Virus record (IMG/VR): IMGVR_UViG_3300032401_000690
Span: 1 to 64,000 of that record
Source of the DNA: a virus
Direction: 5' to 3' (one strand)
DNA length: 64,000 nt
How positions within the stretch are numbered: position 1 is the stretch's first letter; each line of letters starts with the position of its first letter. Of the stretch, positions 25,144-54,304 are shown piece after piece. The translations under genes were made by a program, and so were the position numbers. The notes below the pieces were generated by a model. It was given only the letters and a program-made list of their open reading frames with translations. It was not told the DNA's origin and searched no databases.

Positions 25144-25144
25144 A

Positions 25145-26206: not shown

Positions 26207-26210
26207 ATTG

Positions 26211-26471
26211 TTATAGTTTATTTATTATTTTCTTAATTAATAGTGTATTAAATGCCAATTTAAAGGGTAAAGGTAATTCACTTGAGTTCATTCCTAATTT
26301 TTCATCAATTTCGTCTGGATGTTCCATTACGATTTCTAACATAAATTTAACAGTTTCGTACTTCACCAAATGTATTTGATTATCCGTTTCACCCGATACT
26401 GGATCAATTGTTGTATAATCCTCAATAGCGTCTAAGTCAATGTAATAATGTTCGCCTAAAATTTTAAACAT
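26211..26471 (-). CDS. Hypothetical protein
   Basis: The 86-residue product (MFKILGEHYYIDLDAIEDYTTIDP...) has a beta N-terminus and a helical, hydrophobic C-terminus (LPFKLAFNTLLIKKIINKL). It is not recognised. It overlaps the following HAD-like gene by 8 bp in the same operon. Confidence 0.6.
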   Translation of the reverse strand: MFKILGEHYYIDLDAIEDYTTIDPVSGETDNQIHLVKYETVKFMLEIVMEHPDEIDEKLGMNSSELPLPFKLAFNTLLIKKIINKL

Positions 26472-27150: not shown

Positions 27151-27865
27151 ATAATATTTTGGTGATTAATGGGTTTCTAACGTTCTTAGCGTCTCTAAAA
27201 TCGTAAACACCGATATCAGAAACATTCTTAAATTTTTGTATTGCGTCGTATAGTCCCGATTGTTTTTTATCTTTATATCTGTCCGTTTGTTCAAGATCTC
27301 CCGAAATAAAGAATTTACTGTTATAACCAATTCTTGTTAATAACAATTTCATTTGGTTAGGTGTTGAATTTTGTGCTTCCTCAAAAATAAGAATTGAGTT
27401 ATCAATATTCATTCCTCTCATATATGCCAAAGCAAATACCTCAATAATTTCAGCCTTCTTTAATTCTTCCCTTGCTTCTTTACCAATAATTTTATTTAAT
27501 AAATAATACGAGGGGAAGATATAAGGATCCAGTTTCTCTTCAAGATTTCCCGGTAATGATCCCAACTTTTCTTCAGCTTCAACTGCCGGTCTAACAATAA
27601 TAATTTTTTCATATGAATTGTTTGGATCCATTAATAAATCTACTGCCGCCTTCATTGCGATAAAACTTTTACCAACACCCGCAGGACCTGAAGCGACCGT
27701 AATTTGATTATTCTTTAAAATGTTATAATAATCTTCTTGGTGTTCAGATAAAAATTTGTTTTTTTGTTTTCGTTTAATTACCGAGTTAATGAAGTCCTTT
27801 CTTGAAAAGGGTTTAGAGTCTACGGTATCTGTGTTAATTGATGGATCTAATTTTTTTCTTGTCAT
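27122..27865 (-). CDS. phoH: PhoH-like ATPase
   Basis: The 247-residue product has the PhoH signature: HQEDYYNILKNN, the Walker A ASGPAGVGKSFIAMKAA, VRPAVEAEEKLGSLPG, EKLDPYIFPSYYLL, Walker B SILIFEEAQNSTPNQMK, and FISGDLEQTDRYKDKKSG-like sensor with SGLYDA. PhoH proteins are RNA-helicase-like ATPases common in marine and T4-like phages. Their phage role is still unclear. The 3' end overlaps the HAD-like gene. Confidence 0.92.
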   Translation of the reverse strand: MTRKKLDPSINTDTVDSKPFSRKDFINSVIKRKQKNKFLSEHQEDYYNILKNNQITVASGPAGVGKSFIAMKAAVDLLMDPNNSYEKIIIVRPAVEAEEKLGSLPGNLEEKLDPYIFPSYYLLNKIIGKEAREELKKAEIIEVFALAYMRGMNIDNSILIFEEAQNSTPNQMKLLLTRIGYNSKFFISGDLEQTDRYKDKKQSGLYDAIQKFKNVSDIGVYDFRDAKNVRNPLITKILFEYDKENRD

Positions 27866-27871
27866 ACTTAT

Positions 27872-28867
27872 TTATTTTTGTGTGTTAGTATTTAGTTTAG
27901 TCATCCACCCATCAATCATATCATCCATTAAAGTTTCAAATGAATATTCAGGACTCCATCCTAATGTCGTTCTTATTTTTGTTGAGTCTCCCTTTAAATA
28001 TTTTAACTCTTCAGCTCTTAAAAATTTTTCATTTTGAGAAACATATTTTGTGTAATCTAAATCTAATTTTTTAAAAACGTATTCAACCATTTCCCTCACT
28101 GAATGAGTTGTCATTGTTGATACAACAAAATCATCGGGTTGGGTATGATTGGTCATCATATGTATTGCTTTAACATAATCTTTAGAATGCCCCCAATCAC
28201 GATAAGAATCCATATTCCCCAATTCCAATTTATTTGATAGACCAAGTTTAATTTCAACGGCAGTTTTAACAACTTTGTTTGTTACAAAATTAGATGCTCT
28301 TCTAGGTGATTCGTGATTAAACAATATTCCGTTACAAGCGTGTAACCCATATGCATTTCTATAATTTCTAACAATATTATAAGCAAAAACTTTTGAACAT
28401 CCGTAAGGACTAACAGGAGTCATAGGTGTTGTTTCTCTTTGGAAACCGTCCTCATCAACTGAATTACCAAACATTTCTGAAGAACTCGCTTGATAAAATT
28501 TAGCGTTAGGACAAGATCTTCTATATGCTTCTAATATATTTAAAACTCCTATTGCGTTTGTTTGTACGGTAAATTGTGGTATATCAAAACTAATTCTAAC
28601 GTGACTTTGTGCTGCTAAATTATAAATTTCATCAGGTTGTATAATATCCAATAATTTTTCTAAACCTCCCTGATCTAATAAATCACCATAATGAATATTT
28701 AAATTATTCCTAACGTCTTCGGTAAATCTACTTTGTTGGGACTCAACCGTTGAATTCCTTCTTATAATTCCGTGTACTTCATATCCAAGATCAAGTAAAT
28801 ATTCGGCCAAATATGATCCATCTTGTCCATTAATTCCTGTTATAAAAGCTTTTTTTTGTTTGCTCAT
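27872..28867 (-). CDS. gmd: GDP-mannose 4,6-dehydratase
   Basis: The 331-residue product is a short-chain dehydrogenase with the NADP site FITGINGQDGSYLAEYLL, GIIRRNST, EIYNLAAQSHVRISFDIP, the catalytic Ser/Tyr/Lys region QASSSEMFGN and SPYGCSKVFAY, FNHESPRRASNFVTNKV, and SYRDWGHSKDYVKA. All are characteristic of Gmd. It converts GDP-mannose to GDP-4-keto-6-deoxymannose, the precursor of GDP-fucose, GDP-rhamnose and GDP-perosamine. No Fcl/GDP-fucose synthase is seen in the window, so the host or another part of the genome must supply it if GDP-fucose is the product. Fucosyltransferase-like genes follow in the same direction. Confidence 0.95.
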   Translation of the reverse strand: MSKQKKAFITGINGQDGSYLAEYLLDLGYEVHGIIRRNSTVESQQSRFTEDVRNNLNIHYGDLLDQGGLEKLLDIIQPDEIYNLAAQSHVRISFDIPQFTVQTNAIGVLNILEAYRRSCPNAKFYQASSSEMFGNSVDEDGFQRETTPMTPVSPYGCSKVFAYNIVRNYRNAYGLHACNGILFNHESPRRASNFVTNKVVKTAVEIKLGLSNKLELGNMDSYRDWGHSKDYVKAIHMMTNHTQPDDFVVSTMTTHSVREMVEYVFKKLDLDYTKYVSQNEKFLRAEELKYLKGDSTKIRTTLGWSPEYSFETLMDDMIDGWMTKLNTNTQK

Positions 28868-28881
28868 TTTTATTTATTTTA

Positions 28882-29490
28882 TTATTTATTTGATGTTTTA
28901 AAAATATCCATTTGTGTTAAATCAGGCCAATCAATTACTGACCATTTTCTTGGCGGTGTATCTATTGCTAATTGTAATTTTTCTAAACCTAATTGTGCGG
29001 TTTCAGGTGTCATATAATAATGAAAACCAATAGTATTAATATTTTGATCTCTCCAAGGAGTATCGGGTAATCTACCGTCATATGACATTTTTTTTAAGGT
29101 AAAATAATCGTCTTCATTATCAAGTAAAATAATCCCACCTCTACCTAATGAAAGATGTTTTTGGTATTGGAAACTGATACACATAAATGTATTTGATATG
29201 TAACTATCTTTTCTCCAAAGAACTGCGGCATCAATAATTCTTTTATCTCCGTAATTTAATGTGTAATAATCTTCCCATTCTTCATCTCTCCATTCTCGGT
29301 CTAAACCCATTTTTTCCGATAAGAATGGAACAGATAAATAAGTCCTTTTAGGGACATTTATTTTAGTTTCTTTAGTATACCTTAAACACAATTCAATTCC
29401 GTGAGTACAACTATCAACCGCCACGGCGTATTTTGATCCAAAAAAATTCGCAATTAACTCTTCAAAATTTTTAATTGACTGAAACGACAT
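28882..29490 (-). CDS. Short DegT/DnrJ-like PLP-dependent protein
   Basis: The 202-residue product reads FEELIANFFGSKYAVAVDSCTHGIELCLRY, the N-terminus of sugar aminotransferases, and has ISFQYQKHLSLGRGGIILLDN, the PLP-lysine region (Lys in QYQKHL). The C-terminus GFHYYMTPETAQLGLEKLQL also fits. Full-length DegT enzymes have about 370 residues, so most of the small domain and an internal part are missing. It may be a compact variant or a reduced enzyme. Beside Gmd, a GDP-perosamine-type 4-amination is the obvious guess. Confidence 0.7.
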   Translation of the reverse strand: MSFQSIKNFEELIANFFGSKYAVAVDSCTHGIELCLRYTKETKINVPKRTYLSVPFLSEKMGLDREWRDEEWEDYYTLNYGDKRIIDAAVLWRKDSYISNTFMCISFQYQKHLSLGRGGIILLDNEDDYFTLKKMSYDGRLPDTPWRDQNINTIGFHYYMTPETAQLGLEKLQLAIDTPPRKWSVIDWPDLTQMDIFKTSNK

Positions 29491-29509
29491 AATATTTCAT
29501 TTTTAATTT

Positions 29510-30313
29510 TTATTTACCCTCAATAAAGGTTTTAAAAATGTAGTCCTCGGCAAGAGAAAAGTCAATTGATCTTTTAAAGTTATCATTTACCGAATCCATT
29601 TTACTATAATATAATTCAAATGATAAATCTTCAATTTTAAATTTATTATCTAACATTATTATCCCATTAGTATTAAAATAATCACCAATATTACTAATAC
29701 CATAATAAATTGGAATCGTTCCTGTCATAAAACAATCTGTAATTTTTTCCGTAAACATATTTGAATATGTTGCGTTCTCCATTGCAAATGAAAAACAATA
29801 ATCTTTTAACCCATCTTCTTTATTATTTATGGGGTTATAACCTCTACCAAAATGATCACAGTCTTTAGAAAATTTATGAATCATTTGTTGTCTATAAATG
29901 TGTTCCGAACACATAGTTTTGTTTGATGCAATCATAGAAACCAATTTAGTTTTTGGATATATTTCACCGTGGGAAAAATATGATTTACCACTACATAATG
30001 TCAATTCAAAAATATCTGATAATTTTGATAATTCAACGTCGTGAGTAAAAACTTTTATAAATTTATTTTTTAATGTATTAATATTTTTTGAACACCAATC
30101 ATATAAATGTGGTATTATCGTTTTTGATTCACATAACCACCCATAATTTTTAGTTTGATGATTAAATGGTGAGTGTAAACCATTATCGATATGTATTGAT
30201 ATTGAAGCTGATCCGTCTTTAATCCACTCAATAAATTTTGGGGGTAAATCGTTTGTTGAGATACTATGTTGGAAACCTCCACCTATCATATTAATTTTTA
30301 CTCTGTCAATCAT
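29510..30313 (-). CDS. Family 10 fucosyltransferase-like glycosyltransferase
   Basis: The 267-residue product carries the GT10 signature in its C-terminal half: DYCFSFAMENATYSNMFTEK then ITDCFMTGTIPIYYG. This matches the alpha-1,3-fucosyltransferase pattern FxxxxENxxxxxYxTEK...AxxxGxxPxYxG. The N-terminal half (MIDRVKINMIGGGF...) is divergent. The predicted donor is GDP-fucose, in line with the nearby gmd. The acceptor is unknown. It abuts the next gene with a 4-bp overlap. Confidence 0.82.
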   Translation of the reverse strand: MIDRVKINMIGGGFQHSISTNDLPPKFIEWIKDGSASISIHIDNGLHSPFNHQTKNYGWLCESKTIIPHLYDWCSKNINTLKNKFIKVFTHDVELSKLSDIFELTLCSGKSYFSHGEIYPKTKLVSMIASNKTMCSEHIYRQQMIHKFSKDCDHFGRGYNPINNKEDGLKDYCFSFAMENATYSNMFTEKITDCFMTGTIPIYYGISNIGDYFNTNGIIMLDNKFKIEDLSFELYYSKMDSVNDNFKRSIDFSLAEDYIFKTFIEGK

Positions 30314-31131
30314 ATTCTATAAACCTTTTTAATGTTTTCAGATAAAATAACAGAAGTTAATGATAATGATGATACATCTGCTTTTAGTAGATAATTGCAT
30401 TTAGATAATGTTAAAATTTCTAATAGACATTCTAACCCCATACGATACATATGATGTTCTCCACCATTTTTGTATCTATCATATGGATTTAAATTAGGTG
30501 AGTTTGAATCAGCTCTAGACATTCCATCATGATAAATGATGGGAATTGAAATATTTTCTTTTAATGTTTCAATGATTGAACCATCATCAGTGGATAAAAA
30601 AATTTGTTTAATATCATTATTATTTGATAAAATTTGATTAATTTTTTTAATGTAACTATTTAAAGGTGAAACCCTATGGTTATGTACCATGTCAGTTAAC
30701 CTAACTTGAACACCAAGCGTTATTTTATTTTCTAAATTATTCTGGTAGTATTCGTTTATTTTTTCAACTATGTAAGGTTTTATTTGAAATGAGTCATAGA
30801 ATTTTTTTTTTAAATCAATGAAAATTTCTGTGTTTATAAAAGCATCTTTATTTTCATAACTAAGTACTGATGGTGTATAAAAATTCATGTTTTTATAATC
30901 TTCTGTTAGTGTTGTTTGGTTAAAATAGTATTCCCAACAATTTTTAGTACTATAAATAGTAGGTCCTTTTTCAGTACACACACAATCATTTGTTTCCATA
31001 TCAACAAATAATCTATCGTCATCGCTTAAATAGGTAAGTGCGTTTAAAATAATAAAGATGTTACCAGCAAACTCAACTCCAGCAAATTCGTTTTCTGGTG
31101 ATATTTTTTCAAAAGTAAATTTATAATTCAT
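30310..31131 (-). CDS. Fucosyltransferase-like GT-B protein (NodZ/GT23-like)
   Basis: The 273-residue product has LGVQVRLTDMVHNHRVSPL, IKQIFLSTDDGSIIETL, and YRMGLECLLEILTLSKCNYL followed by KADVSSLSL. The R-x-x-D motif, S-T-D and late L-x-x-L-x-L-S-x-C order resembles NodZ/GT23 and O-fucosyltransferase-type enzymes that use GDP-fucose. Similarity is weaker than for the GT10 and GT11 neighbours, so the family is tentative. Confidence 0.6.
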   Translation of the reverse strand: MNYKFTFEKISPENEFAGVEFAGNIFIILNALTYLSDDDRLFVDMETNDCVCTEKGPTIYSTKNCWEYYFNQTTLTEDYKNMNFYTPSVLSYENKDAFINTEIFIDLKKKFYDSFQIKPYIVEKINEYYQNNLENKITLGVQVRLTDMVHNHRVSPLNSYIKKINQILSNNNDIKQIFLSTDDGSIIETLKENISIPIIYHDGMSRADSNSPNLNPYDRYKNGGEHHMYRMGLECLLEILTLSKCNYLLKADVSSLSLTSVILSENIKKVYRI

Positions 31132-31648
31132 CGTAACCTAATTTTTTAGCGTTTTCAATTATTTTTATTGGATTTATTTTTTTAACCAAAATAGCTGGGT
31201 TACCCTTATAAACACCCCATTCTTCGGTGTCTCCAATCAGTAAACTTCCGGAGGTTAATAACACGCCTTTTCTAAGTATTGATCCTGGTAAAACAATTGC
31301 ATTTGTCCCAATATTTGAAAATTCCTCCATTACAACAGGTTCAATAATTTGAGTTCCTTTTAATTCATTTGGGATCATTGCTCCAAATAACCCACTATCA
31401 TCAAATCTATCTGACCCACAAATAATTCTAGCTCCGGCCATTATATTATTAAATCCTTTTGCGGTAAAATAACTATTTTTACCACCAATAATTGTTACGT
31501 ATGGGCTTATATGAACATAATCGCCAATAGTAACATTTGTTGAACAATAAACCCCTTTATCAATTGCCACGTGCGAACCGATTATTGTCAAATCTTGTTT
31601 TGACACTACATCATCGTGAACAACAATATCTTTACCGATTATTTTCAT
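31121..31648 (-). CDS. Hexapeptide-repeat acyltransferase (left-handed beta-helix)
   Basis: The 175-residue product shows hexapeptide turns throughout: IIGKDIVVHDDVV, IIGSHVAIDKGVY, NVTIGDYVHISPYVTI, and later EFSNIGTNAIVLPGSILRKGVLL and GVYKGNPAILVKK. The last is the conserved G-x-P-A-k end of sugar O/N-acetyltransferases. It probably acetylates a sugar of the glycan assembled by this cluster. It overlaps the next gene by 11 bp. Confidence 0.85.
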   Translation of the reverse strand: MKIIGKDIVVHDDVVSKQDLTIIGSHVAIDKGVYCSTNVTIGDYVHISPYVTIIGGKNSYFTAKGFNNIMAGARIICGSDRFDDSGLFGAMIPNELKGTQIIEPVVMEEFSNIGTNAIVLPGSILRKGVLLTSGSLLIGDTEEWGVYKGNPAILVKKINPIKIIENAKKLGYDEL

Positions 31649-32259
31649 TATAATAAATCGTTAAATTTAGAATTAATCATTTCATCAATGTTAATCTCAT
31701 TTGATTTTGTTTTAAACATGCCAGAGTTTAAGTGAATATTATCAATTGAATAATAATTATCGTAGTTGTTCATGTCACTAACAATGAAATAAAAAAGTGT
31801 TTTAAATTCAAAATTTTTAATTTTAGACATTTTTTCTAATTTGTCATTAAATAATTGTGTGATTATATTTCTTTCATTTTTGGTTTTATAGCTCATGGCT
31901 CCATTTCCTTGTATACCATTATTAGACCCTGAAGGTATTGGACCCCAAACACCTACTTTATACCCTGAATTTATAAAGTGGTCTAAAAATAAACAATATC
32001 TATCAACACATTCTATAACAACATCTTCATATGTTCTATTATTATTATCGGCAACAAATCCTAAATGACACCTAGCATCAATTTCACCAAAAGAAAAGAA
32101 TATATAATCCGAATTTTTGTTGATTGGGTTAGACAATAAAAAACTATCTATTTGTGAAATTTTTTTTATGTTTTGATATGCCGTTGGTGCCGTCAACCAC
32201 AATTTAACATATGAATCATTAAATGATTGTACGTGGCTATCACCTACTAAATAAATCAT
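31648..32259 (-). CDS. SGNH/GDSL-like hydrolase or acyl-esterase
   Basis: The 203-residue product begins MIYLVGDSHVQSFN, with GDSH as block I and Ser as candidate nucleophile. IFFSFGEIDARCH corresponds to the G-x-x-D/N block, and SIDNIHLNSG holds the D-x-x-H(L) dyad. Together these form an SGNH fold usually acting on acyl groups of glycans. It directly follows the acetyltransferase, so it could trim or transfer O-acetyl groups. Confidence 0.72.
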   Translation of the reverse strand: MIYLVGDSHVQSFNDSYVKLWLTAPTAYQNIKKISQIDSFLLSNPINKNSDYIFFSFGEIDARCHLGFVADNNNRTYEDVVIECVDRYCLFLDHFINSGYKVGVWGPIPSGSNNGIQGNGAMSYKTKNERNIITQLFNDKLEKMSKIKNFEFKTLFYFIVSDMNNYDNYYSIDNIHLNSGMFKTKSNEINIDEMINSKFNDLL

Positions 32260-32284
32260 AATTTTTTTTATTTTTTTTTATTTT

Positions 32285-32887
32285 TTATTTACCCCAAGAT
32301 TCCCATACAAATGGATAATCAAAATTTATTTTAAATCCATTATCCAATAAATTATTACGGATTTTTTCTCTTCTTTCTATATCCCCCTCAATCCCCAAAT
32401 GAAATTGTATTTGTATGTTTTTAAATTTGTTAATCGACCCTGTTAATATCATATTTTCTAAAAGTGGGTATTCATCACCTTCAATATTAATCTGTATAAG
32501 ATCAACGTATTCTAAACCAAAATTATTTAGGATAGTATCAATGGTATTAAATTTAACATTTATCCCATTCCCATTAATTAAATTAGATGAACTACCATCT
32601 CCTCCCATATAAATAATACCATCTTTATCTTCAATTCCAACACCAACATTTAATAATCTAACTTTGGAGTTATTCTCAAATTTGGAGACCATACCACCAT
32701 AAAAACTATGAACAGGTTCTAAAATATAAACGTTTGGGTTATATTTTTCAATCATTTGTTGAGCCCAAACACCAGTGTATCCACCCAAATCCATAATGAT
32801 TGAGTTTTCATTTAAATCATATGTTATGTTATGGGTATAATCTCCCCTATCATTAAACCATCTACCTATCTCATTACTATTACTCAT
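32285..32887 (-). CDS. FkbM-family methyltransferase
   Basis: The 200-residue product has a SAM-binding start IIMDLGGYTGVWAQQM, NVYILEPVHSFY, VRLLNVGVGIED, and YVDLIQINIEGDEYPLLENM followed by QIQFHLG. The I-x-I-E-G-x-E block is the FkbM signature. These enzymes O-methylate sugars. The start overlaps the cupin gene by 8 bp. Confidence 0.85.
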   Translation of the reverse strand: MSNSNEIGRWFNDRGDYTHNITYDLNENSIIMDLGGYTGVWAQQMIEKYNPNVYILEPVHSFYGGMVSKFENNSKVRLLNVGVGIEDKDGIIYMGGDGSSSNLINGNGINVKFNTIDTILNNFGLEYVDLIQINIEGDEYPLLENMILTGSINKFKNIQIQFHLGIEGDIERREKIRNNLLDNGFKINFDYPFVWESWGK

Positions 32888-33299
32888 TTGTTATAAATTT
32901 TTTATCAAGTGATTGACCCTCATATGGTCCTGTTTTATATTCATAAACAATCGTATCTTCCTCAAGTATTTCATATGTGTGACCACCATAAAGGGTAAAA
33001 CTCGCATCTCCAGCATATAAAATTGGAGTTGCTATAATTTGATCATCAATATCAAACAAAATACATTTAACACTACCTTTAATAACAACCCAAGATTCTT
33101 GAGCTATTTGTTCCGCATAGTGCCTATCTTTAGTAATATGTTTATGTGGTGGAAATGTTTTATCTTTTTCCATCTTTAATGTTGCACATTGAATAAAATT
33201 ATTTTCAGGTATAACTTCTGTTCTACCATTAATATCATCCAATCTATTAATTACGTGTAATAGTTTTTTTGTTTCTACTTTTGAGTATATTTTTTCCAT
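32880..33299 (-). CDS. Cupin-fold protein (WbuC-like)
   Basis: The 139-residue product has a cupin core: PPHKHITKDRHYAEQIAQESWVVIKGSVKCILFDIDD, then GDASFTLYGGHTYEILEEDTIVYEYKTGPY. The histidines in PPHKH and GGHTYE would line a metal site. Small cupins of the WbuC kind occur in polysaccharide clusters. The reaction is unknown. Confidence 0.72.
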   Translation of the reverse strand: MEKIYSKVETKKLLHVINRLDDINGRTEVIPENNFIQCATLKMEKDKTFPPHKHITKDRHYAEQIAQESWVVIKGSVKCILFDIDDQIIATPILYAGDASFTLYGGHTYEILEEDTIVYEYKTGPYEGQSLDKKFITNE

Positions 33300-33302
33300 C
33301 TT

Positions 33303-34103
33303 TTAAATTTTAATCCAACTCTCAGGTATTATATCGTTGGTGTTATGTTGTATGTTTGATCCAAACCATTTTTTTGGTCCAACCACTATTTTATTATCAT
33401 TATTATTTAACCATGCTCCCCACCAAGAAAATGATGAATTAGATATTATATTATTATTACATAACGACATTAAATATAACTCAATGTAATCTTTTTCATT
33501 TTCAATGTAAATAATATTATCTAAAATTAGATTGTCTTTACACCATTGAATGTCGTCACTAAAAACAATAAAAATATCAGTTTTATCATTTAACATTTTA
33601 ATACTTTTTTTGTAATATTCTATAGATTGTGTTGGGTGATGATTTGGATAATTAATATAATCACCTCTCCTAACGTGGATACTGGTCGTTTTTTTATTTT
33701 GGTCAAAATTGTATTTTTTTTGTATATAATCTTCAGGTATAAAATTAAAATCTAAAAATTCTAAAATTGATTCTCTATTATGTTTGAAATATTTTTCACT
33801 TTGGAAAAACCCATCAATTTGTATATCCCCATTTATTAATGGGGTGTCAACGTATTCAAATGGATACACTCTTAAGGGAATACTTTTAGTGATTGGTGAT
33901 GTTATAATATTTTTAAATAATTTTAAATATTCGTGACTATAATCCAAAATAGGGTTATGGGTTTTATCTGAATTCAAATAATTTAAATGTGTAATAAGAT
34001 TAGGAAAACTACATTCAGTATTATTATCTATTGATAACGATTTTGTCGCCGCAATTTGAAATAGCACATTACCTATGCCTCCTTTTAAATTACAATAAAT
34101 CAT
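33303..34103 (-). CDS. Family 11 fucosyltransferase (alpha-1,2-fucosyltransferase-like)
   Basis: The 266-residue product has the full GT11 signature: MIYCNLKGGIGNVLFQIAAT, DGFFQSEKYF, SIHVRRGDYINYP, IFIVFSDDIQWCK and NIISNSSFSWWGAWLN. Length is close to the ~280-300 typical. It transfers fucose from GDP-fucose to a galactose-type acceptor in alpha-1,2 linkage in characterised relatives. With gmd and the GT10-like gene it points to a fucosylated glycan. Confidence 0.92.
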   Translation of the reverse strand: MIYCNLKGGIGNVLFQIAATKSLSIDNNTECSFPNLITHLNYLNSDKTHNPILDYSHEYLKLFKNIITSPITKSIPLRVYPFEYVDTPLINGDIQIDGFFQSEKYFKHNRESILEFLDFNFIPEDYIQKKYNFDQNKKTTSIHVRRGDYINYPNHHPTQSIEYYKKSIKMLNDKTDIFIVFSDDIQWCKDNLILDNIIYIENEKDYIELYLMSLCNNNIISNSSFSWWGAWLNNNDNKIVVGPKKWFGSNIQHNTNDIIPESWIKI

Positions 34104-34827
34104 TTTTATTTAATTTATCATATGGTTTATACGACCTGATTTTGTTTACGACATTACTGATTTTATCCATATTAACTTTGTGATCATTGATTGGGTTACC
34201 TTCATTATATATGTAATTAATTTCAGTCATAAATTTATAATTGGTTGGTCCACACATTTCAACCATAGGATACATAAACGCAACATCTCCCGCAACAGAC
34301 CAATAATTACCGTTTTCATCTTTTAAATCGTCAACTTTAATTTTCTTCCATAAAAAAGATTTCCAAGTTCTTAAATGAGTTAAAGTAAATGGTTGGTACC
34401 TAATATTTTCAAAAGTTGTATGAGGTTTTGCAAATCCAATCCTACCATCGTGATATAAAAAACTACCATTTGCCAACCAAATATCACCACTATTATATGT
34501 TTTAATTACTCTATCAAAAACCTCATTGTCGGGTAACCAATCGTCACCATCAACCTCAATACAAATATCTTCGTCTAAAACATTATAATTACCTCTAATT
34601 ACTTGATCGTAATTTCCAGGTTGATACATTTTTAATTTATTTTCAATTAAAATAAATCTATCATCATTTTTTATAAAATCTTTAATTTTATTTACGGTAT
34701 TGTCGGTTGACATATCATCAGTTATAAAACATCTAAAATTTTTATATTTTTGATTCATAATTGATGACAGGCATTTTTCAATATAATTTTCACAATTATA
34801 GGATGTTGTTAATATAATTAAGTTCAT
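34090..34827 (-). CDS. Family 2 glycosyltransferase
   Basis: The 245-residue product begins LIILTTSYNCENYIEKCLSS then FRCFITDDMSTDNTV, the GT-A nucleotide-binding start. EDICIEVDGDDWLPDNEV holds the DGDD metal site. WRTWKSFLWKKI-like and YNEGNPINDHK segments follow. It overlaps the GT11 gene by 14 bp and its other neighbour by 4 bp, so the three are probably co-translated. The acceptor is unknown. Confidence 0.88.
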   Translation of the reverse strand: MNLIILTTSYNCENYIEKCLSSIMNQKYKNFRCFITDDMSTDNTVNKIKDFIKNDDRFILIENKLKMYQPGNYDQVIRGNYNVLDEDICIEVDGDDWLPDNEVFDRVIKTYNSGDIWLANGSFLYHDGRIGFAKPHTTFENIRYQPFTLTHLRTWKSFLWKKIKVDDLKDENGNYWSVAGDVAFMYPMVEMCGPTNYKFMTEINYIYNEGNPINDHKVNMDKISNVVNKIRSYKPYDKLNKNDLL

Positions 34828-35702
34828 AATATTTTTATATATTCTTCTTTTATTTTTTTTGCCACTTCCATACCATCAAATTTACTTATGTCGGAAGGTA
34901 CCTCAAAACGATCTTTACTAATTATTTCCCCAAGTGAATTTACATTATAAATCCATCCAGGTTTTCCACACATCCACCCCTCAATAGTTGTTCTACCTAA
35001 AAGGATACCTGCAGTCTCACTACAATTTTTAACAAAATCCTCAACATTATATGTGTCTTCGTAATACTTAACGTGAGAATTTTCTAACAGACCAGACAAA
35101 TAATATGATGAGTTTTTACCTACTAACCATAATTCTTTACCAATATTTTTTGTATACTCTACCAAATCTTCAATTGATTTTTGTCTTAAATAATCAATTG
35201 TCCCTACAAATAGAACATAACCATTATCTGTAGTATTGGTTGGGTTAAATCTATTAGAATCAATAGGGTTATAAATAACTTCAATTTTATCTTTTGGTAT
35301 GTTAAAATTATTTATTAAATGGTCTTTAATTTCAGGTCTAATGGCAATGTATTTTAGAATACTATTATCCATTACAGGATTTTCTAAAGATATCACTTCA
35401 GAATGGATTGTAGTTATTTTTTTAATATTTGGAAATGCTTTAACCAACGCTTCTGTGATTGGTTTATGTTGTGTATGTATTATATCAAATATTTGAGTAA
35501 GAAGTTGTGTGTCAAAATTATGTATTTTTATACCATTTTTTTGAGCTAATGAAACTAAAGGATCTCCAAGATTTGGTGATGTTATAGTGACATCACAATC
35601 AAGTTGTGTTAAATATTTAGATAATTCGTAAATATACATTTCAGATCCCGTGAAATTTTTAAAGGATAAACACCCAATTAATATTTTTATTTTATTTGAC
35701 AT
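34824..35702 (-). CDS. GT4-like glycosyltransferase
   Basis: The 292-residue product is a GT-B enzyme. It starts KIKILIGCLSFKNFTGSEMYIYELSKYL, then has FDIIHTQHKPITEALVKAFP, the domain-2 start YVLFVGTIDYLRQKSIEDLVEY and GILLGRTTIEGWMCGKPGWIYN, where E-G-W-M-C-G-K-P corresponds to the donor-binding E-x(4)-G-x-P region. It is shorter than most GT4 enzymes (~350-400). Confidence 0.82.
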   Translation of the reverse strand: MSNKIKILIGCLSFKNFTGSEMYIYELSKYLTQLDCDVTITSPNLGDPLVSLAQKNGIKIHNFDTQLLTQIFDIIHTQHKPITEALVKAFPNIKKITTIHSEVISLENPVMDNSILKYIAIRPEIKDHLINNFNIPKDKIEVIYNPIDSNRFNPTNTTDNGYVLFVGTIDYLRQKSIEDLVEYTKNIGKELWLVGKNSSYYLSGLLENSHVKYYEDTYNVEDFVKNCSETAGILLGRTTIEGWMCGKPGWIYNVNSLGEIISKDRFEVPSDISKFDGMEVAKKIKEEYIKIL

Positions 35703-35714
35703 CAGTTTTATTTA

Positions 35715-37223
35715 TTAAATGTAATAAAGGTTATTTTTTATTTTATCAAAATTTAATTTAATTAATGGTAATAAAATTTTATTGTATTCCATAATAATTT
35801 CCCCCATTTCTAAATCAATATTTCTTGTTTTAGATTCATAATGGTACGCAACACAATTACTACTAATAATGTTATTGTAATCTTTAATTTTAAATTGTAA
35901 ATTAAGTTCAACATCCTCCCAACAATATTTATAATTTTCACTAAACATTCCAAGTTTATTAAAAATATCTTTTCTAACCATCATTAAAGCCGCGGTATTA
36001 CCAACCACATTTGATTGATCACTAGTATAGTTAAAATACGACTCTTTATTTTTATGTGTTACACTTATTGATTTATTTGTTTGATTAACATATATAGATA
36101 TTCCATCATGTTGTAGTGTGTTATTTGGATAATGTAGTCTAGCACCAACTGTCCCAACTTTATTTGTTGTTTTAAAAATTCTTAACATTTCATAAATAAC
36201 ATTGTTAAGAACTTTAATATCGTTATTACAAAACAATAAAAATTCGTAATCATCATTTATGTGATTTTTAACAACATCGTTATTAATTTTTGCAAAATTA
36301 TAATAATCGTATTCAATTAATCTTATGTTGTTATTTAGTTGGATATAACTTTTTATGATTTCCTTTTCATCATCTGTTGATCCCGTATCCGCAATAAAAA
36401 TATCAAATAGTTTTTCATTACAATGTTCATAAAATGAATTAATACAATCCAATAACATTTCCACATTACCTTTTGTTGGGATTATAATTGCAACCTTACC
36501 AATATTTTTTAAAGGTTTTTCTTTAATTACCGGAACATAAACCGATTCAGGTTTTAAATCTAATGGTAATTCACTTCCCCATTTCTCAACGAACTTATCT
36601 TTGCTTTCCCAAAACTCTTGGTTTGGTCTACCAACAGATTGATGTGTTATCTCAAATGATGAGGTTACACCAATCTTAACTCCCGATAAGTAATTTGGTA
36701 CACAGAATAGATGATCGTAGAAGTGGAACTTACCAATGGTTGTATCAAACATATGATTACATTTTGTTTTATCAAACGACATAAACAAACCATCAATTGT
36801 TACAACTGGAACTAAAAAAGGTAATTTTGGAGAATATTTACTTAAGAATTTTTTTTGACCATCAGGGTGATGATAAACTTGCCCGACCATTGTTTGGTTC
36901 ATTCTGTCCCAATAAACTCCTGACTCGGGAAAATAACAAGAACCTGCTTTGCCTATAATACCATAGTCGGGATTATCCTCAAAATCTTTTAATAATTTTT
37001 TACCCCAATTTTTCTCAAGTTTAATATCGTTATGACAACAAACAATTATATTATAAATTGATTCAGTAATTCCGGAGTTATAAACATTTGATAATGAATG
37101 TTCATTATGATTTTCATATTCTAATATCTGAGGATCTTTAACCCCAACAGTTTGTAACAAATGTTGTCTAAATTTGTTATTATATTCTTGATCTTTATGT
37201 GTTGAATATATTATTGTTATCAT
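35715..37223 (-). CDS. Two-domain glycosyltransferase (GT2)
   Basis: The 502-residue product has an N-terminal domain (MITIIYSTHKDQEYNNKF..., YNIIVCCHNDIKLEKNWGKK) and a second, complete GT2 domain from about residue 243 (KVAIIIPTKGNVEMLLDCINSF, IFIADTGSTDDEKEII, FLLFCNNDIKVLNNV, CWEDVELNLQFKIKDY). Both domains show an N-D-I metal-site variant. It overlaps the dUTPase C-half gene by 4 bp. Likely role is chain extension of the phage-encoded glycan. Confidence 0.85.
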   Translation of the reverse strand: MITIIYSTHKDQEYNNKFRQHLLQTVGVKDPQILEYENHNEHSLSNVYNSGITESIYNIIVCCHNDIKLEKNWGKKLLKDFEDNPDYGIIGKAGSCYFPESGVYWDRMNQTMVGQVYHHPDGQKKFLSKYSPKLPFLVPVVTIDGLFMSFDKTKCNHMFDTTIGKFHFYDHLFCVPNYLSGVKIGVTSSFEITHQSVGRPNQEFWESKDKFVEKWGSELPLDLKPESVYVPVIKEKPLKNIGKVAIIIPTKGNVEMLLDCINSFYEHCNEKLFDIFIADTGSTDDEKEIIKSYIQLNNNIRLIEYDYYNFAKINNDVVKNHINDDYEFLLFCNNDIKVLNNVIYEMLRIFKTTNKVGTVGARLHYPNNTLQHDGISIYVNQTNKSISVTHKNKESYFNYTSDQSNVVGNTAALMMVRKDIFNKLGMFSENYKYCWEDVELNLQFKIKDYNNIISSNCVAYHYESKTRNIDLEMGEIIMEYNKILLPLIKLNFDKIKNNLYYI

Positions 37224-37522
37224 ATCCCAGTACTCCCGAATCCTTTCTCTCCTCGGTCTTTATTGTTTATGTTATCAACCTTTGTTAATTTAATCCACTT
37301 ACCTGAAACCACGGGTGAAATAACTGCTTGTGCGATTTTCTGACCTTTTTTAATTATAACATTATTTTTTGTTGTATTAAATAGTATAACTTGAATTTCT
37401 CCTGTATATCCACAATTATGTATTAGATGGTCATTACAAAAAAAGTTATGATTATTAGATACCGTAATATCATAAGTTTGGTTTTTTGATTTTGAGATTT
37501 TTTTTATTTTAGTTGTTTTCAT
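37220..37522 (-). CDS. dut: C-terminal half of dUTPase fused to a split C-intein
   Basis: Residues 1-36 are a C-intein (TYDITVSNNHNFFCNDHLIHN). Residues 37-100 are the dUTPase end: Cys37-GYTGEIQVILFN (second part of motif III), IKKGQKIAQAVISPV (motif IV) and RGEKGFGSTGI (the Gly-rich motif V closing the active site). After trans-splicing with the product of 38432-39124, motif III would read GTVD-CGYTGEI. The start codon overlaps the end of the homing endonuclease gene by 14 nt. dUTPase removes dUTP to keep uracil out of DNA. Confidence 0.93.
   Translation of the reverse strand: MKTTKIKKISKSKNQTYDITVSNNHNFFCNDHLIHNCGYTGEIQVILFNTTKNNVIIKKGQKIAQAVISPVVSGKWIKLTKVDNINNKDRGEKGFGSTGI
37415..37522 (-). 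other. C-intein coding segment (36 residues) in dUTPase
   Basis: Residues 1-36 end in LIHN before Cys+1. The length and the TYDITV...H-N-F-F-x-N pattern match canonical split C-inteins of about 35-40 residues. Confidence 0.9.
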
Positions 37523-38393
37523 TTATAAAAGTTTTTAAATCATTAACACTATAAAATATTTTATAGTTTTTATATATCTGTTTTGTATAATATTCCTTAA
37601 CGTCAACCTCTTCAGTATTCCACCCCTTCATTTCAATAATATAGGATAATCCGTTATTAAATTCAACCAAAAAATCAGGAACATAGTGTCTATTTATGTC
37701 GTTATAAAAATATTTTATTCTAATCCCATGTTTATTTGTCCATGTTTTTACTAAAGTAGAGGAATCGAATAATTTCATAGACTCTAATTCGTAAGAGGAT
37801 GCGTACATAAAAATTTCATTATTTTTTGAAGTATATTTACCGGTCTTATATTTATTAGATTGATTACTGATTATTCCATCGGCATATAGTTGAGATATTT
37901 TTTTAGACATATTTTCTCTATATTCTAATGATTTCTCACATCTTCCGTCGTTTAACGACTTTTTTATTGATTCTATTGTTTTTTCTCTATACTCATTATT
38001 TTTCCACTTTTCTTTTGACGTTTTAGATATTTTTTCAATTCTTTCGTCAGATATTACCCATTTTTTAAACTCTTCCGACGATTTCCAATTCGTAAATCCA
38101 GAAAAAATTTCAGGAGTTTCCTTATGAATTTTTTTAATCTTTTCAGACATACTTTTCCTAAATTCAGGATTTTTATGTGTTATATTTCTAATTTTTATTT
38201 GTTTGTCTCTATAGTCGGGGTCTGACCAATTTTTTTTTGATCTTTCCGATATTTTTTTTAACTCATCATTTGATTTCACTTGAGAACCTACAAACATTAA
38301 TTTATAGTCCGAACTATTCATTTTATGTTCAAATTTTAAGTGCTCAACAATTGAACACTTTTTTTCCACACCACAAATTAAACATTTCACCAT
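37509..38393 (-). CDS. Homing endonuclease (PD-(D/E)XK type) between the two dUTPase halves
   Basis: The 294-residue product starts with a zinc-finger-like CLICGVEKKCSIVEHLKFEH block and a long series of NUMOD3-like repeats (Ser/Lys-rich: SERSKKNWSDPDYRDKQI, SKTSKEKWKNNEYREK, SKKISQLYADG). It ends with a nuclease domain RHYVPDFLVEF...YIIEMKGW, the P-D...E-x-K catalytic pattern. Repeats of this kind bind DNA in other phage homing enzymes. It lies inside a fractured gene, so it probably mobilises the split intein. It has its own TATTTATC element 19 bp upstream, and its stop overlaps the C-intein start. Confidence 0.85.
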   Translation of the reverse strand: MVKCLICGVEKKCSIVEHLKFEHKMNSSDYKLMFVGSQVKSNDELKKISERSKKNWSDPDYRDKQIKIRNITHKNPEFRKSMSEKIKKIHKETPEIFSGFTNWKSSEEFKKWVISDERIEKISKTSKEKWKNNEYREKTIESIKKSLNDGRCEKSLEYRENMSKKISQLYADGIISNQSNKYKTGKYTSKNNEIFMYASSYELESMKLFDSSTLVKTWTNKHGIRIKYFYNDINRHYVPDFLVEFNNGLSYIIEMKGWNTEEVDVKEYYTKQIYKNYKIFYSVNDLKTFINENN

Positions 38394-38412
38394 AATACCC
38401 CTTATCTATATT

Positions 38413-38420
38413 GATAAATA
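38413..38420 (-). promoter_or_regulatory. Candidate late promoter element TATTTATC (minus strand)
   Basis: The element lies 19 bp before the homing endonuclease start and just after the N-intein stop codon, so the endonuclease and the dUTPase C-half may be transcribed separately from the N-half. Confidence 0.45.
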
Positions 38421-38431
38421 GTATGCTGGTG

Positions 38432-39124
38432 TTAAAAAATTATGATTTCATCGTTTTCGGTTAAATTTTTTGCCAACTTAATCCCGTCTTTAGTGTAAAC
38501 CTCACTATTAAGGGTAACCTCAAGAATTCCATGTTCGGTGTCAATTAATAATATTTCTTGGACTCCAGTATCAAAAATGGATGATATGACATCTTTCTCA
38601 ATCTCTAAAGAATCTTCATTAAATGAATAAACGATATCCCCAATCCTCAGTTCTTTGATTGTCTTATCTCCGTCAATGGTTAATATCTTCATGTTTTCAG
38701 AAAAACAATCCACCGTCCCCGGAGAATTTAATACCATAAGCCCTTGTTTTAAAGCCAAACCACTCTTAGGCCTCACCTGTACCTCATACCCGTCAGGAAT
38801 ATCAATATGTAACCCCGTTGGAATTAATGATCTACCAAACGATTCTATTTCAATTTCTTCAGTTGAAAACAAATCAAATCCAGAATCTGTTGGGTAAGCA
38901 TATGATGGGTCAATAGAATCAACGTTGGATTGAGAATACTCAACTTTCATTTTTTGTTCAAAGTTTGCCATATCTCGTTCAAGTTCGGCAACATCAACAC
39001 CAAAAATATCCATTATGTTTTGGTAGTCAGGTTCTTCATCACCAAACATATCCTCAAGTTCTTGGAGATTTTCTAGTTGATTAAGTAAGTCCCCAAGATT
39101 TTCTTCTTCTTCCTCGTTAATCAT
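38432..39124 (-). CDS. dut: N-terminal half of dUTPase fused to a split N-intein
   Basis: Residues 1-70 form an acidic helical extension not found in ordinary dUTPases. The core follows: YAYPTDSGFDLFS (motif I), RPKSGLALKQGL (motif II) and NSPGTVD (first part of motif III). Cys140 starts the N-intein (CFSENMKILTIDGDKTIKEL, IGDIVYSFNED, a B-like block around HGILEVTLNSEVYT, ending ENDEIIIF), 91 residues long. The insertion splits catalytic motif III, so no activity is expected before splicing. The start overlaps the exonuclease stop by 4 bp. Confidence 0.93.
   Translation of the reverse strand: MINEEEEENLGDLLNQLENLQELEDMFGDEEPDYQNIMDIFGVDVAELERDMANFEQKMKVEYSQSNVDSIDPSYAYPTDSGFDLFSTEEIEIESFGRSLIPTGLHIDIPDGYEVQVRPKSGLALKQGLMVLNSPGTVDCFSENMKILTIDGDKTIKELRIGDIVYSFNEDSLEIEKDVISSIFDTGVQEILLIDTEHGILEVTLNSEVYTKDGIKLAKNLTENDEIIIF
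38435..38707 (-). other. N-intein coding segment (91 residues) in dUTPase
   Basis: It runs from the Cys140 codon at 38705-38707 to the stop. It is the partner of the 36-residue C-intein encoded at 37415-37522, and together they give a typical ~127-residue mini-intein. Confidence 0.88.
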
Positions 39125-39840
39125 TTTAATTCCTTTAATTTTTTAATAGTATCAACCAATACCACAACATCTTTTTCACAGTAATCTGATATCTCTTTTA
39201 ACATATTTTTATTCCAATAGTAGTCGTGAACTTTATCTCCCGTCACTTCACCATCTTTTGGTGTTGGTATATCCAAACAAGTACACATAAGATCCAACGA
39301 TCCGATGGAAGTATAAGAACCATATTGCCAAATCTCTTTGGTATCAATTGCCTTAACTTCCCAAGGTTTTGTATCATACGATGGTAAAAGTTTTGATGGC
39401 ATAATCCCATTTATAATCATTCGTTTTGCCATCATCGGTATATCAAAATTCTTTAGGTTATGACCACAAAGATAAAAATCTAATTTTTGGCAACGATCCA
39501 ATAGATTTCTTACTTGTAATAAAACTTCTTTTTCATCATCACCTGAGAATGTTTGTTTCTTGATATCACCATTGTCCATAACGAACGCCAATGAAACACA
39601 AACAATCTTTGCAAATTCAGGAACAAGTGCCGCCCTTTTCTTAAACACCTCATTTTTCCATTCCATTTCAGATTCCCCAATCATAGTATCTTCGGGAAAT
39701 CTTTTTAGGAACCAATCAAAGTATTTATTAAACTGATCGGCAACTGAACTATTTAAAGTTTGGCATACCTCAAAGTCAGGACAACAACCTACAGTTTCTA
39801 TATCAAGAAACAAAATTTTTGTAATTGGAATATTAATCAT
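39121..39840 (-). CDS. DEDD-family 3'-5' exonuclease (PolB exo-like)
   Basis: The 239-residue product has ILFLDIETVG (ExoI, Asp/Glu), CGHNLKNFDIPMMAKR (ExoII) and ISDYCEKDVVVLVDTI (ExoIII, Y-x(3)-D type). The order and length fit the stand-alone 3'-5' exonucleases related to the DNA polymerase B proofreading domain. It may act in replication, repair or host DNA recycling. It sits upstream of the fractured dUTPase in a nucleotide-metabolism island within the glycan cluster. Confidence 0.85.
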   Translation of the reverse strand: MINIPITKILFLDIETVGCCPDFEVCQTLNSSVADQFNKYFDWFLKRFPEDTMIGESEMEWKNEVFKKRAALVPEFAKIVCVSLAFVMDNGDIKKQTFSGDDEKEVLLQVRNLLDRCQKLDFYLCGHNLKNFDIPMMAKRMIINGIMPSKLLPSYDTKPWEVKAIDTKEIWQYGSYTSIGSLDLMCTCLDIPTPKDGEVTGDKVHDYYWNKNMLKEISDYCEKDVVVLVDTIKKLKELK

Positions 39841-39845
39841 ATTAT

Positions 39846-40679
39846 TTAATTATTTTTTATTTTATCTACAACTTCCCACCCTTTATTTTTTCCATAAGAT
39901 TTCAAAGTAGTAACACTAACTAATAGGTTATTTTTTTTTACGTAATCTTTAAATGAATTATAACCTAAAAAATTTAAAATATCACCTTTAGGTGTTTTTA
40001 TTATCCAAATCATTTTATTTGATTCAGATTGTTTTTTCTTTGATAACTCACTTCTTTTATACCCAACCTTACTTATTGACATTTTTTTTCTTATGTCTTC
40101 ATTATATTTTTTACCTTTATTTGGTGATGGAACCCCTTTTTTAATTTTAGATAATTTTAATTTAGTTTCATCATTCATAGGAATTCTTTTTTTACCTTTA
40201 AGTGACTCGCTTATTTTTTTTCTTGTATTGTCACTAACAATTCTACCTTTAGATGTTTCACTAATTTTTTTTCTAAAATTTTCAGACATTTTTAACCCCC
40301 TATTCCATCCACCTAAAGTCCTATTTTGTTTTTTCGCAGTTTCGGACATTTTAAGTTTTGTTTTACTACTATGATTTTTCCCAAACATAGGAGATCCCCC
40401 ATCACCACCATTGGTTAAATTAACCAATTTAAATCCCCATACTTTAAATTGAGATATCCAATACATTTCAACCTCATTTGAGTCTTTATCGTCACATACA
40501 TCTAAAATTTCTATAATAATTTTTCCCCCATTTAATAAAGTATTATTAATCCATTTTTCTTTATATGTTTTTTTATTTTTACTTTGATTTATATGTGCAG
40601 AGTATCTTTTATTTATTGATTTAGTTTTACCAATATAACGAATTTTAATCTCATCACTAAGTGTGTAAATATATGTCAT
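39846..40679 (-). CDS. GIY-YIG homing endonuclease with NUMOD3 repeats
   Basis: The 277-residue product begins with a GIY-YIG domain (TYIYTLSDEIKIRYIGKT, RYSAHINQSKNK, later EMYWISQFKVWGFKLVNLTNGG). Several NUMOD3-type DNA-binding repeats follow (FGKNHSSKTKLKMSET, SENFRKKISETSKGR, SDNTRKKISESLKGK, NEDIRKKMSISKVGY). A C-terminal module (ILNFLGYNSFKDYVKKNN) closes it. It is free-standing and probably a mobile insertion between the exonuclease and a glycosyltransferase gene. Confidence 0.92.
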   Translation of the reverse strand: MTYIYTLSDEIKIRYIGKTKSINKRYSAHINQSKNKKTYKEKWINNTLLNGGKIIIEILDVCDDKDSNEVEMYWISQFKVWGFKLVNLTNGGDGGSPMFGKNHSSKTKLKMSETAKKQNRTLGGWNRGLKMSENFRKKISETSKGRIVSDNTRKKISESLKGKKRIPMNDETKLKLSKIKKGVPSPNKGKKYNEDIRKKMSISKVGYKRSELSKKKQSESNKMIWIIKTPKGDILNFLGYNSFKDYVKKNNLLVSVTTLKSYGKNKGWEVVDKIKNN

Positions 40680-40707
40680 AATAATAAATATTACGACATT
40701 AATAAAG

Positions 40708-41925
40708 TTACCTAATAATACTCAAATAAAAATCTTTTCGGTCAATGGTTACTTTATTAAGGTCGTAACGATCCTTTACCGTTTCATATAGTCTTTCACC
40801 CATATCGGTAATCATATTTGGGTTATCAACCAACTTCTTAATATATTTTGCCCAATCACTATGGTTATTATTTTTATTAACCAATAACGCATTACCATCA
40901 GTAAAATTACCATTATTTAACGAATGTTTCAAATCAATCGTGTATGGTCCAACATTAGATGCAATCAATGCCTTTTTATAAAATCCTGCTTCAATAACTT
41001 TAAGTTGTGATTTCATTCTGTTAAATACGTGATCAACAATTGGTGATAAAGAAATATCAAACTTAGAATAGTTCTTAGCGTATGTTGTTGTTGGTTTTGT
41101 CCATACTCTAACATAGTTTTCATTTTGCCACCCAGGATATTCACCATCCTCAAACTTATCCAAATATTCCTTATATTTTGGTGTAACGATTTTATATTTG
41201 TCGGTAAAAATTTCTTCATACTTAACCCAAACAGTTTCTTCAGGTTTAATTGCCCGTTTTGTTTCTTGATTTGTTTGTTTGTTAATTTCGGTAACTGTAC
41301 CTCTTGTATCAAAACCACAAACATAATATTGTAGTTTATCTTTAACGGACGATAATTTTGAAACCATACCATCTAACAATTTTAAATCGTGTAAATGTGA
41401 TGATCCACCCAACCAACCAACTCTTACTTTATCAGATGGTAATGTTGGTTCATTAAATTGAGCCTCCCTTGGGTCAATAGCGTTTGGAAACACAAAAACA
41501 TTTTTATTAAATTTTTTAATTTCAAATGCAAAAATATCAGTTGTTGTTGTAACGTAAGAAGCAACTTTAAGATTTGCAATAATTTTTTCGTGAATTTTGT
41601 TATTTAAAATCAATTGTTGAATTGGATGTTCCTTTGTTGGTAACCAATAATCGTCAATGTCTGCAACAACAATAATTCCCATAGATTTAAGTTTCTCAAT
41701 CAATGCAGGACATTTATCATAATCATTTCCAATTGTTCTATGGAAATGAACAATATGATATTGTGACCAATAATTCATATCATCCACCTTTGGTGCATAG
41801 TCAATATCAACGTGAAAATCATCAGGATATAGATTTTGTAGTTTAACATGGGGGTCGACAGATCTATACCGACCAACTCCTGACGAATCTGAGGGGGCGA
41901 CTAATACTCTAATTTTTTCTTTCAT
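40708..41925 (-). CDS. GT-B glycosyltransferase
   Basis: The 405-residue product begins RVLVAPSDSSGVGRYRSVDPHVKL, then IVHFHRTIG, IVVADIDDYWLPT, and the domain-2 start KVRVGWLGGSSHLHDLKLLDG. The C-terminal region has FDISLSPIVDHVFNRMKSQLKVIEAGFYKKALIAS, where K-x-x-E-A-G resembles the donor-binding E of GT4 enzymes. Such proteins are common in marine T4-like phages. The acceptor is unknown. Its start overlaps the next gene's stop by 17 bp. Confidence 0.82.
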   Translation of the reverse strand: MKEKIRVLVAPSDSSGVGRYRSVDPHVKLQNLYPDDFHVDIDYAPKVDDMNYWSQYHIVHFHRTIGNDYDKCPALIEKLKSMGIIVVADIDDYWLPTKEHPIQQLILNNKIHEKIIANLKVASYVTTTTDIFAFEIKKFNKNVFVFPNAIDPREAQFNEPTLPSDKVRVGWLGGSSHLHDLKLLDGMVSKLSSVKDKLQYYVCGFDTRGTVTEINKQTNQETKRAIKPEETVWVKYEEIFTDKYKIVTPKYKEYLDKFEDGEYPGWQNENYVRVWTKPTTTYAKNYSKFDISLSPIVDHVFNRMKSQLKVIEAGFYKKALIASNVGPYTIDLKHSLNNGNFTDGNALLVNKNNNHSDWAKYIKKLVDNPNMITDMGERLYETVKDRYDLNKVTIDRKDFYLSIIR

Positions 41926-42673
41926 ATTTTTTTATAATTTTTTTTAAATAGGTAAGATCGTAAAAATCACTTTCCCATATTACTTCTAAATTATAACCAT
42001 ATTCTTTTATTTTATCAACTCTAAATTTATCCTCATCCCAAATATTCTTTGCGGTTTTTTTTTTATGGGGGTGAAAATAATCACTATCGTATTTTAATGG
42101 GTTACAATGCCAATAATCACCATTAAATTCTATAATTAAATTATATTTTTCAATATAAATGTCACAAACATATCTACCAACAGAAAAAGATCCTTTAGGG
42201 TTTTGTTTCATTTTTTTTAATTCTGTTAAAAGTTTTTTTTCTTTTTTAGAGACAGGTCCTTGTTTTGGAAAATTATTAGATATTTTTTCAGATATTTTTT
42301 TTAATGTTTCTTTAGTGTGTTTTTTACCAAAAAATGGATTTGATTCCCCCTTTTGTTGGTCATTACTACATTTTTTACATAACGAATCTTTTAATTTGTA
42401 ATAATTTCTACAAGTAATTGATGAGTTATTTGATGACACAACCACATCAGTCCCACATTTAGGGCATTTCCTCATAATAACATATTTATCATCATTTTTA
42501 ATAATCTTTAAAGATTTACATCTATCTCGTTTCCTGATAAGATTATGTTTGTTTAAAATGGTAAGTATTGTTGGTTTTGAAACATTTAACATTTTTCCAA
42601 TCTCTATGGAGCTTTTTCCTTTATTATATTCACTAATAATAAAATTTTCATTAAGGGTTAATTTTGGTGGCAT
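41909..42673 (-). CDS. Homing endonuclease with HTH, zinc ribbon and Vsr-like nuclease
   Basis: The 254-residue product has an N-terminal helix-turn-helix (SSIEIGKMLNVSKPTILTIL), a zinc ribbon (CPKCGTDVVV...CKKCSND), one NUMOD3 block (NPFFGKKHTKETLKKISE) and a Vsr-like nuclease (VGRYVCDIYIEKYNLIIEFN then GDYWHCNPLKY, later KIKEYGYNLEVIWESDFYD). The E-x-x-G-D-Y-W-H pattern and the C-terminal E-S-D are the catalytic elements. A TATTTATA octamer lies 14 bp before the start. Free-standing mobile gene at the end of the glycan cluster. Confidence 0.88.
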   Translation of the reverse strand: MPPKLTLNENFIISEYNKGKSSIEIGKMLNVSKPTILTILNKHNLIRKRDRCKSLKIIKNDDKYVIMRKCPKCGTDVVVSSNNSSITCRNYYKLKDSLCKKCSNDQQKGESNPFFGKKHTKETLKKISEKISNNFPKQGPVSKKEKKLLTELKKMKQNPKGSFSVGRYVCDIYIEKYNLIIEFNGDYWHCNPLKYDSDYFHPHKKKTAKNIWDEDKFRVDKIKEYGYNLEVIWESDFYDLTYLKKIIKKYERKN

Positions 42674-52579: not shown

Positions 52580-52593
52580 CTATAATTTTTTAT

Positions 52594-53481: not shown

Positions 53482-53482
53482 T

Positions 53483-54301: not shown

Positions 54302-54304
54302 TTT

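Follow-up and report, generated by a model that had tools for sequence, protein, structure and literature searches.

In the IMG/VR virus record IMGVR_UViG_3300032401_000690 the gene for dUTPase (dut) lies in two pieces, and a homing endonuclease gene (HEG) is located in between. The break is within the first 64,000 nucleotides (nt) of the record, hereafter the window. The motif III Asp of dUTPases is catalytic, and it is directly behind this residue that, in all likelihood, a mobile unit composed of a split intein and its own HEG has been inserted. Judged from sequence comparisons, the two-piece gene very probably is a split-intein dUTPase; this reading held up in each in-silico test applied to it. 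In related sequences one and the same site is found empty, occupied, with a decaying HEG, and with the HEG deleted. This amounts to a nearly complete homing cycle of a split intein. The source, a T4-like virus record of 144,147 bases, possesses genes for a gp23-type capsid protein, a portal, and a prohead protease.

The divided dut gene and its intact relatives

All parts are on the minus strand in the order exonuclease-like gene, dUTPase N-half, HEG, dUTPase C-half, and glycosyltransferase. The N-half (39124..38432, 230 aa) consists of 139 aa of dUTPase ending in SPGTVD and a 91 aa N-intein beginning with CFSENMKIL. Its N-extein (38708..39124, dUTPase residues 1-139) carries motifs I and II after an acidic N-terminal extension and reaches halfway into motif III (GTVD). 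The N-intein (38435..38707) starts with Cys1; its block B reads TLNS, i.e., Ser68 takes the place of the His in TxxH. After a gap of 38 nt the HEG follows, an open reading frame (ORF) of 294 aa (37509..38393). The C-half (37522..37220, 100 aa) opens with a 36 aa C-intein (37415..37522) which shares its initial 14 nt with the end of the HEG and terminates with HLIHN. The subsequent C-extein (37223..37414, 64 aa) completes motif III (CGYTGEI) and supplies motifs IV and V; it is headed by the +1 Cys codon TGT (37412..37414).

The five motifs of trimeric dUTPases (PF00692) thus are spread over both exteins. Both halves match Pfam PF00692 (N-half E 2.8e-9, C-half E 2e-14), and the N-extein matches the PHROG dUTPase at E 2e-24. 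Relatives are referred to by L numbers. The intact dut of L003, in which the regions corresponding to the N-extein (by tblastn) and the C-extein are 98% and 95% identical to the window, aligns with solved dUTPases across the domain, with PGTVD positioned opposite PGTID/PGTVD. The C-half matches the Pfam intein splicing domain with an E of 1e-4, which is under the curated cut-off. Joined as a single query, N- and C-intein match solved inteins of the DnaB type, NrdJ-1, DnaX, and gp41-1. These data bear out the original prediction, made from the window alone, of a dUTPase split in motif III around an endonuclease gene, with a 91-residue N-intein after GTVD and a 36-residue C-intein before CGYTGEI. 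An intact second dut, named there as a possible objection, did not materialize: neither another trimeric (PF00692) nor a dimeric dUTPase (PF08761) is present in the 144-kb record, which may be incomplete.

Searches with the C-half detected the C-intein together with the dUTPase C-extein on 52 IMG/VR contigs, many of them near-identical copies from different samples; the count omits four inteins in other genes. According to tblastn most relatives have N-extein, N-intein, HEG, C-intein, and C-extein in constant order, and their exteins are about 35 to 76% identical to those of the window. The three-part layout is found in about 20 distinct sequences. Intact dut genes devoid of an intein are represented by four distinct sequences, L003/L017, L045 and its copies, L056/L057, and L058. 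Taken together, the recurrence of the layout and the existence of intact intein-less alleles demonstrate that the arrangement in the window is not due to chance. The earlier proposal to look for intein-less relatives with the target site proved fruitful, as the exact empty site is present in close relatives. The nucleotide sequence of the empty site in L003 is GTGGAT-CAA-GGATATACAGGAGAA, whereas the window has GTGGAT, the 1,293-bp insert, TGT, and GGATATACAGGAGAA. Upon insertion the codon for Gln (CAA) of empty alleles, or for Glu (GAA) in L045, is replaced by that for Cys at +1. Hence the +1 nucleophile is part of the mobile unit and is left as a scar in the enzyme. The empty L003 and the occupied L029 alleles share a single metagenome, 3300042465.

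Group I introns are frequent in phage nucleotide-metabolism genes, and such an intron, or else an assembly artefact, might split dut. The probability of either is negligible. The region 36800-40800 has no Rfam match at E≤0.5, the intein halves are in frame and conserved, and independently assembled contigs show the identical layout.

Lateral transfer and persistence of the intein halves

Between the window and L001 synonymous divergence (pS) amounts to 0.54-0.65 in flanking genes and exteins, yet to 0.26-0.31 in N-intein, HEG, and C-intein. In view of the lower values for the intein/HEG unit differential loss alone is not a sufficient explanation. Further, the extein tree and the intein/HEG tree reject each other (approximately unbiased test, p 4e-5 and 2e-80). 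By their exteins, the window clusters with the empty L003 and L001 with the empty L056; by their inteins, the window and L001 are sisters. At the level of sequence this demonstrates that the intein/HEG unit was transferred laterally, as homing between lineages predicts. When phages co-infect a cell, the nuclease, TnsA-like as detailed below, would cut an intein-less dut in or close to its motif III sequence; during repair the 1,293-bp insert and the Cys codon would be copied into the cut allele.

In some lineages the HEG has decayed or was deleted, and dut remains split. Frameshifts disrupt the HEG of L035. Of the HEG in L037, L039, and L042 a deletion has spared no more than the last ~30 codons; the half-genes are still separate, with a gap of 65 nt between them. 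In this group the ratio of nonsynonymous to synonymous divergence (pN/pS) is 0.02-0.12 for the N-intein, 0-0.05 for the C-intein, and 0.14-0.32 for the C-extein. Low ratios in inteins which lack a HEG signify that the intein halves are constrained independently of the HEG. This is the best computational evidence that trans-splicing probably works and is needed. Presumably, dut stays split after HEG loss because the intein halves are then required for dUTPase. The split state of a gene can, accordingly, outlast the loss of the selfish nuclease.

How might splicing proceed? The separately translated half-proteins would be brought together by association of the intein halves. Cys1 would attack the carbonyl of Asp(-1), the acyl group would move to the +1 Cys, and Asn36 would cyclise, with the release of a continuous dUTPase having the junction GTVD-CGYTGEI. 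The residues of a class 1 split intein, i.e., Cys/Ser1, a C-terminal Asn, and Cys/Ser/Thr at +1, are present. Cys1 and Asn36 are invariant throughout the family, +1 is Cys with the sole exception of Ser in L063, and the penultimate His is retained in all but L063.

Two features weigh against splicing. L063 combines Gly in place of the penultimate His with Ser at +1. The block B His is absent in 22 of the 22 distinct dUTPase N-inteins, which have Ser or Thr instead and keep Thr65, and so deviate from the TxxH of class 1 inteins; the original prediction did not note this absence. In an alignment with the solved DnaB, NrdJ-1, and DnaX inteins Ser68 is located opposite their His. The block B His is present in related inteins of other genes (L004, L165, L166, L169). 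In many inteins it matters for the first step of splicing. When it is mutated, many inteins are blocked (PMC10663303, PMC6333167). Nevertheless, naturally His-less inteins exist, the Tko CDC21-1 orthologs (PMC6333167), and on account of such exceptions class 1 membership is possible in spite of the missing residue.

The missing catalytic His might mean that the halves join non-covalently into an active dUTPase without any splicing, the intein pieces being inert or mere pairing aids. Precedents for such an assembly are Aeh1 NrdA around mobE and gene 43 of phage 25 (PMC2988022, PMC3653736). We regard this as improbable. It would not be expected that Cys1 and Asn36 are invariant and that all members have Cys or Ser at +1, or that pN/pS of the inteins (0.02-0.12) is below that of the C-extein even in HEG-less loci. 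Moreover, the break is inside motif III, immediately after the catalytic Asp, and intein alleles have Cys (Ser in L063) where empty ones have Gln or Glu.

The same loss could also be viewed as a sign of decay, i.e., after the exchange of the block B His for Ser/Thr, a position at which mutation blocks many inteins, splicing is dead or poor and the phage uses a host dUTPase. This possibility is slim. The exchange has become fixed, being shared by each of the 22 distinct N-inteins, whose sequence identity falls to about 40%. Inteins and exteins are under strong purifying selection, neither half has lost its dUTPase motifs, and the His-less CDC21-1 orthologs occur in nature. A split intein which splices remains by far the more plausible reading.

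In the dUTPase N-inteins the -1 residue is always the motif III Asp. We hypothesize that the His was given up because a catalytic Asp is invariably at -1: either the Asp side chain assumes part of the first splicing step, or the weaker active site of the intein guards against premature cleavage at the Asp junction. The idea is rather doubtful. In its favor, Asp is at -1 in all 22 His-less N-inteins, and the His is retained by related inteins of other genes; against it, the helicase inteins of L004 and L166 have the His with Glu at -1. If true, the intein would have adapted its chemistry to the very active site of the host enzyme in which it sits. Independently, a naturally His-less intein family offers a ready test of the chemistry driving the first splicing step, and the dUTPase N- and C-inteins might furnish protein engineering with new split inteins. 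The N-inteins with Glu at -1 and an intact block B His are situated in helicase-like genes (L004:5091-6351 and L166:4001-4294); the L004 intein is split with its halves close together.

The endonuclease and its expression

The HEG product is built from an N-terminal CCHH motif (C4/C7/H18/H23), a helical middle part, and a C-terminal domain with the PD-(D/E)XK residues E202, P239-D240, and E254xK256. In an alignment of 16 HEGs C4, C7, H18, H23, E202, P239-D240-F241, E254, and K256 are invariant. Between the window and L001 the HEGs differ with a pN of 0.04 and a pS of 0.29; the nuclease active site is thus intact and under selection. Profile matches are weak but consistent: 12 members match the TnsA-like N-terminal domain, 8 DUF1064, and 13 a restriction-endonuclease family. 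Matches to ROS/MucR-type fingers in nine members (best E 0.0025) fit the CCHH motif.

An AlphaFold2 model has a mean pLDDT of 79, and about 90 in the C-terminal domain. Foldseek relates the model to TnsA (1t0f, 1f1z; probability 1.00, E 4e-4 to 2e-3). As the alignment is confined to the catalytic domain, the TM-scores, about 0.3, are low. From invariant residues, profiles, and the model the HEG is predicted to encode a TnsA-like PD-(D/E)XK nuclease. The original prediction of a PD-(D/E)XK enzyme is thereby refined; the NUMOD3-like repeats which it added are not borne out by Pfam, as no NUMOD3 match exists in the HEG or its 15 relatives at E≤0.1. Affiliation with the Vsr-related family (EDxHD, I-Bth0305I) was likewise rejected: neither Vsr nor I-Bth0305I is among the 50 fold matches listed, and there is no Vsr Pfam match. 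A search of PDB sequences with the HEG profile yielded chance matches only. What the HEG product shares with TnsA, a subunit of the Tn7 transposase, is how its catalytic domain is folded (Foldseek E 4.3e-4, probability 1.00). The differences are a sequence identity of ~15%, the CCHH motif and helical middle part of the HEG, and the lack of linked transposition genes.

The start of the HEG is embedded in a predicted RNA hairpin (38388..38431, minus strand) which pairs the Shine-Dalgarno sequence (about 38403-38398) and the start codon (minimum free energy -15.9 kcal/mol, z -4.6). A late-promoter-like motif, TATTTATCAATA (38409..38420, minus strand), is within the 5' arm and loop. Hairpins at the HEG start are also predicted in L001, L040, L059, and L063 (z -3.0 to -5.1); those of L040, L059, and L063 differ in sequence and occupy the same place (z -3.0 to -4.6).

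The motif TATTTATNAATA has 10 copies in the record, and 6 of them precede an ORF by no more than 45 nt; for 400 permuted control motifs the average was 0.09 and the maximum 3. Among the top 8-mers upstream of ORFs is TATTTATA, with 20 of its 58 copies in this position, a 26-fold enrichment. TATTTAT precedes many virion genes and HEGs. On sequence grounds TATTTATA is likely the core of the late promoter of this phage. It is encountered genome-wide, e.g., at window positions 1589, 6299, 10464, and 15765 (minus strand).

In T4 I-TevI, segB, and Aeh1 mobE early transcripts have the start masked by a hairpin, from which a late promoter releases it (PMC2988022, PMC3014915). By analogy, we infer that the HEG is controlled as in I-TevI and mobE and is expressed late. 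On read-through mRNA from upstream it would be silent, the start site being hidden by the hairpin; late transcripts from the promoter inside the hairpin would be without the 5' arm. Two observations do not favor such a control. No hairpin was found at the HEG start of L062, and within the close group covariation in the hairpin is minimal.

Known systems and further elements of the record

Dassa et al. in 2009 reportedly described 'fractured genes' of phage metagenomes, e.g., NrdA, NrdJ, gp41, IMPDH, and TerL. Half of these loci are said to have Vsr-related HEGs, and some to have control elements. The reported loci resemble the dut locus in that a split intein divides the gene of a host enzyme and a separate endonuclease gene is placed between the two halves. 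The dut locus departs from them in its host gene, in a HEG which is TnsA-like and not Vsr-related, and in that the block B His is missing from the whole intein family. The earlier view that no split-intein dUTPase of this kind is well described can be upheld in part: the layout as such is known from fractured genes, yet a split-intein dUTPase was not found in named phages, GTDB, and the literature searched. In 50,697 records of named phages, searched by tblastn with N-half, HEG, and C-half, the element is absent among the matches listed, which were ordinary dUTPases or short unrelated endonuclease matches. Bacteroides phage DAC16 has no split-dUTPase annotation. GTDB bacterial and archaeal genomes gave 151 pattern matches and 0 relatives, and in the open-access literature searched no paper combines dUTPase, intein, and split intein. 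dUTPase, here a new host gene, joins the phage DNA-metabolism enzymes which are broken by split inteins.

The nrdA-a/mobE/nrdA-b locus of Aeromonas phage Aeh1 is similar in that a nucleotide-metabolism gene is split by a HEG with a hairpin-hidden ribosome-binding site (PMC2988022, PMC3014915). It differs in lacking an intein, in that NrdA is assembled from its pieces without any splicing, and in that MobE is an HNH enzyme. T4 I-TevI shares the hairpin-hidden start on early transcripts and the late promoter in the 5' arm; I-TevI is, however, an intron-encoded GIY-YIG enzyme, whereas the dut HEG codes for a predicted PD-(D/E)XK nuclease between split-intein halves. The CDC21 inteins, too, have naturally lost the block B His (PMC6333167), but are archaeal and have a bulky Leu at -1, while the dUTPase family comprises phage split inteins with Asp at -1.

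Several other elements of the record deserve mention. At its very start (window 76-1588, plus strand) a DUF559/Vsr-like HEG precedes the C-half of terL, in which the C-intein is long. This C-intein carries its own block B (CSYNHKIF) and resembles the atypically split AceL- and GOS-TerL inteins; the terL N-half is outside the record. A free-standing GIY-YIG/NUMOD3 HEG (window 39846-40679, minus strand) adjoins the exonuclease gene. It is not present in the close relative L003 and appears to be a second recent mobile insertion. Another NUMOD3 nuclease gene, with TATTTAT upstream, is at window 41912-42673 (minus strand). Genes for glycosyltransferases and for sugar-dehydratase-like, sulfotransferase-like, and APS-kinase-like proteins, assigned by eye, form long runs at window 24340-37223 and 50929-55206; they possibly serve sugar decoration of the virion. 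Finally, three 32-nt direct repeats with a spacing of 66-68 nt are located at the very end of the record (L075:982-1147, record 143982-144147), the first of which is the 3' end of a gene.

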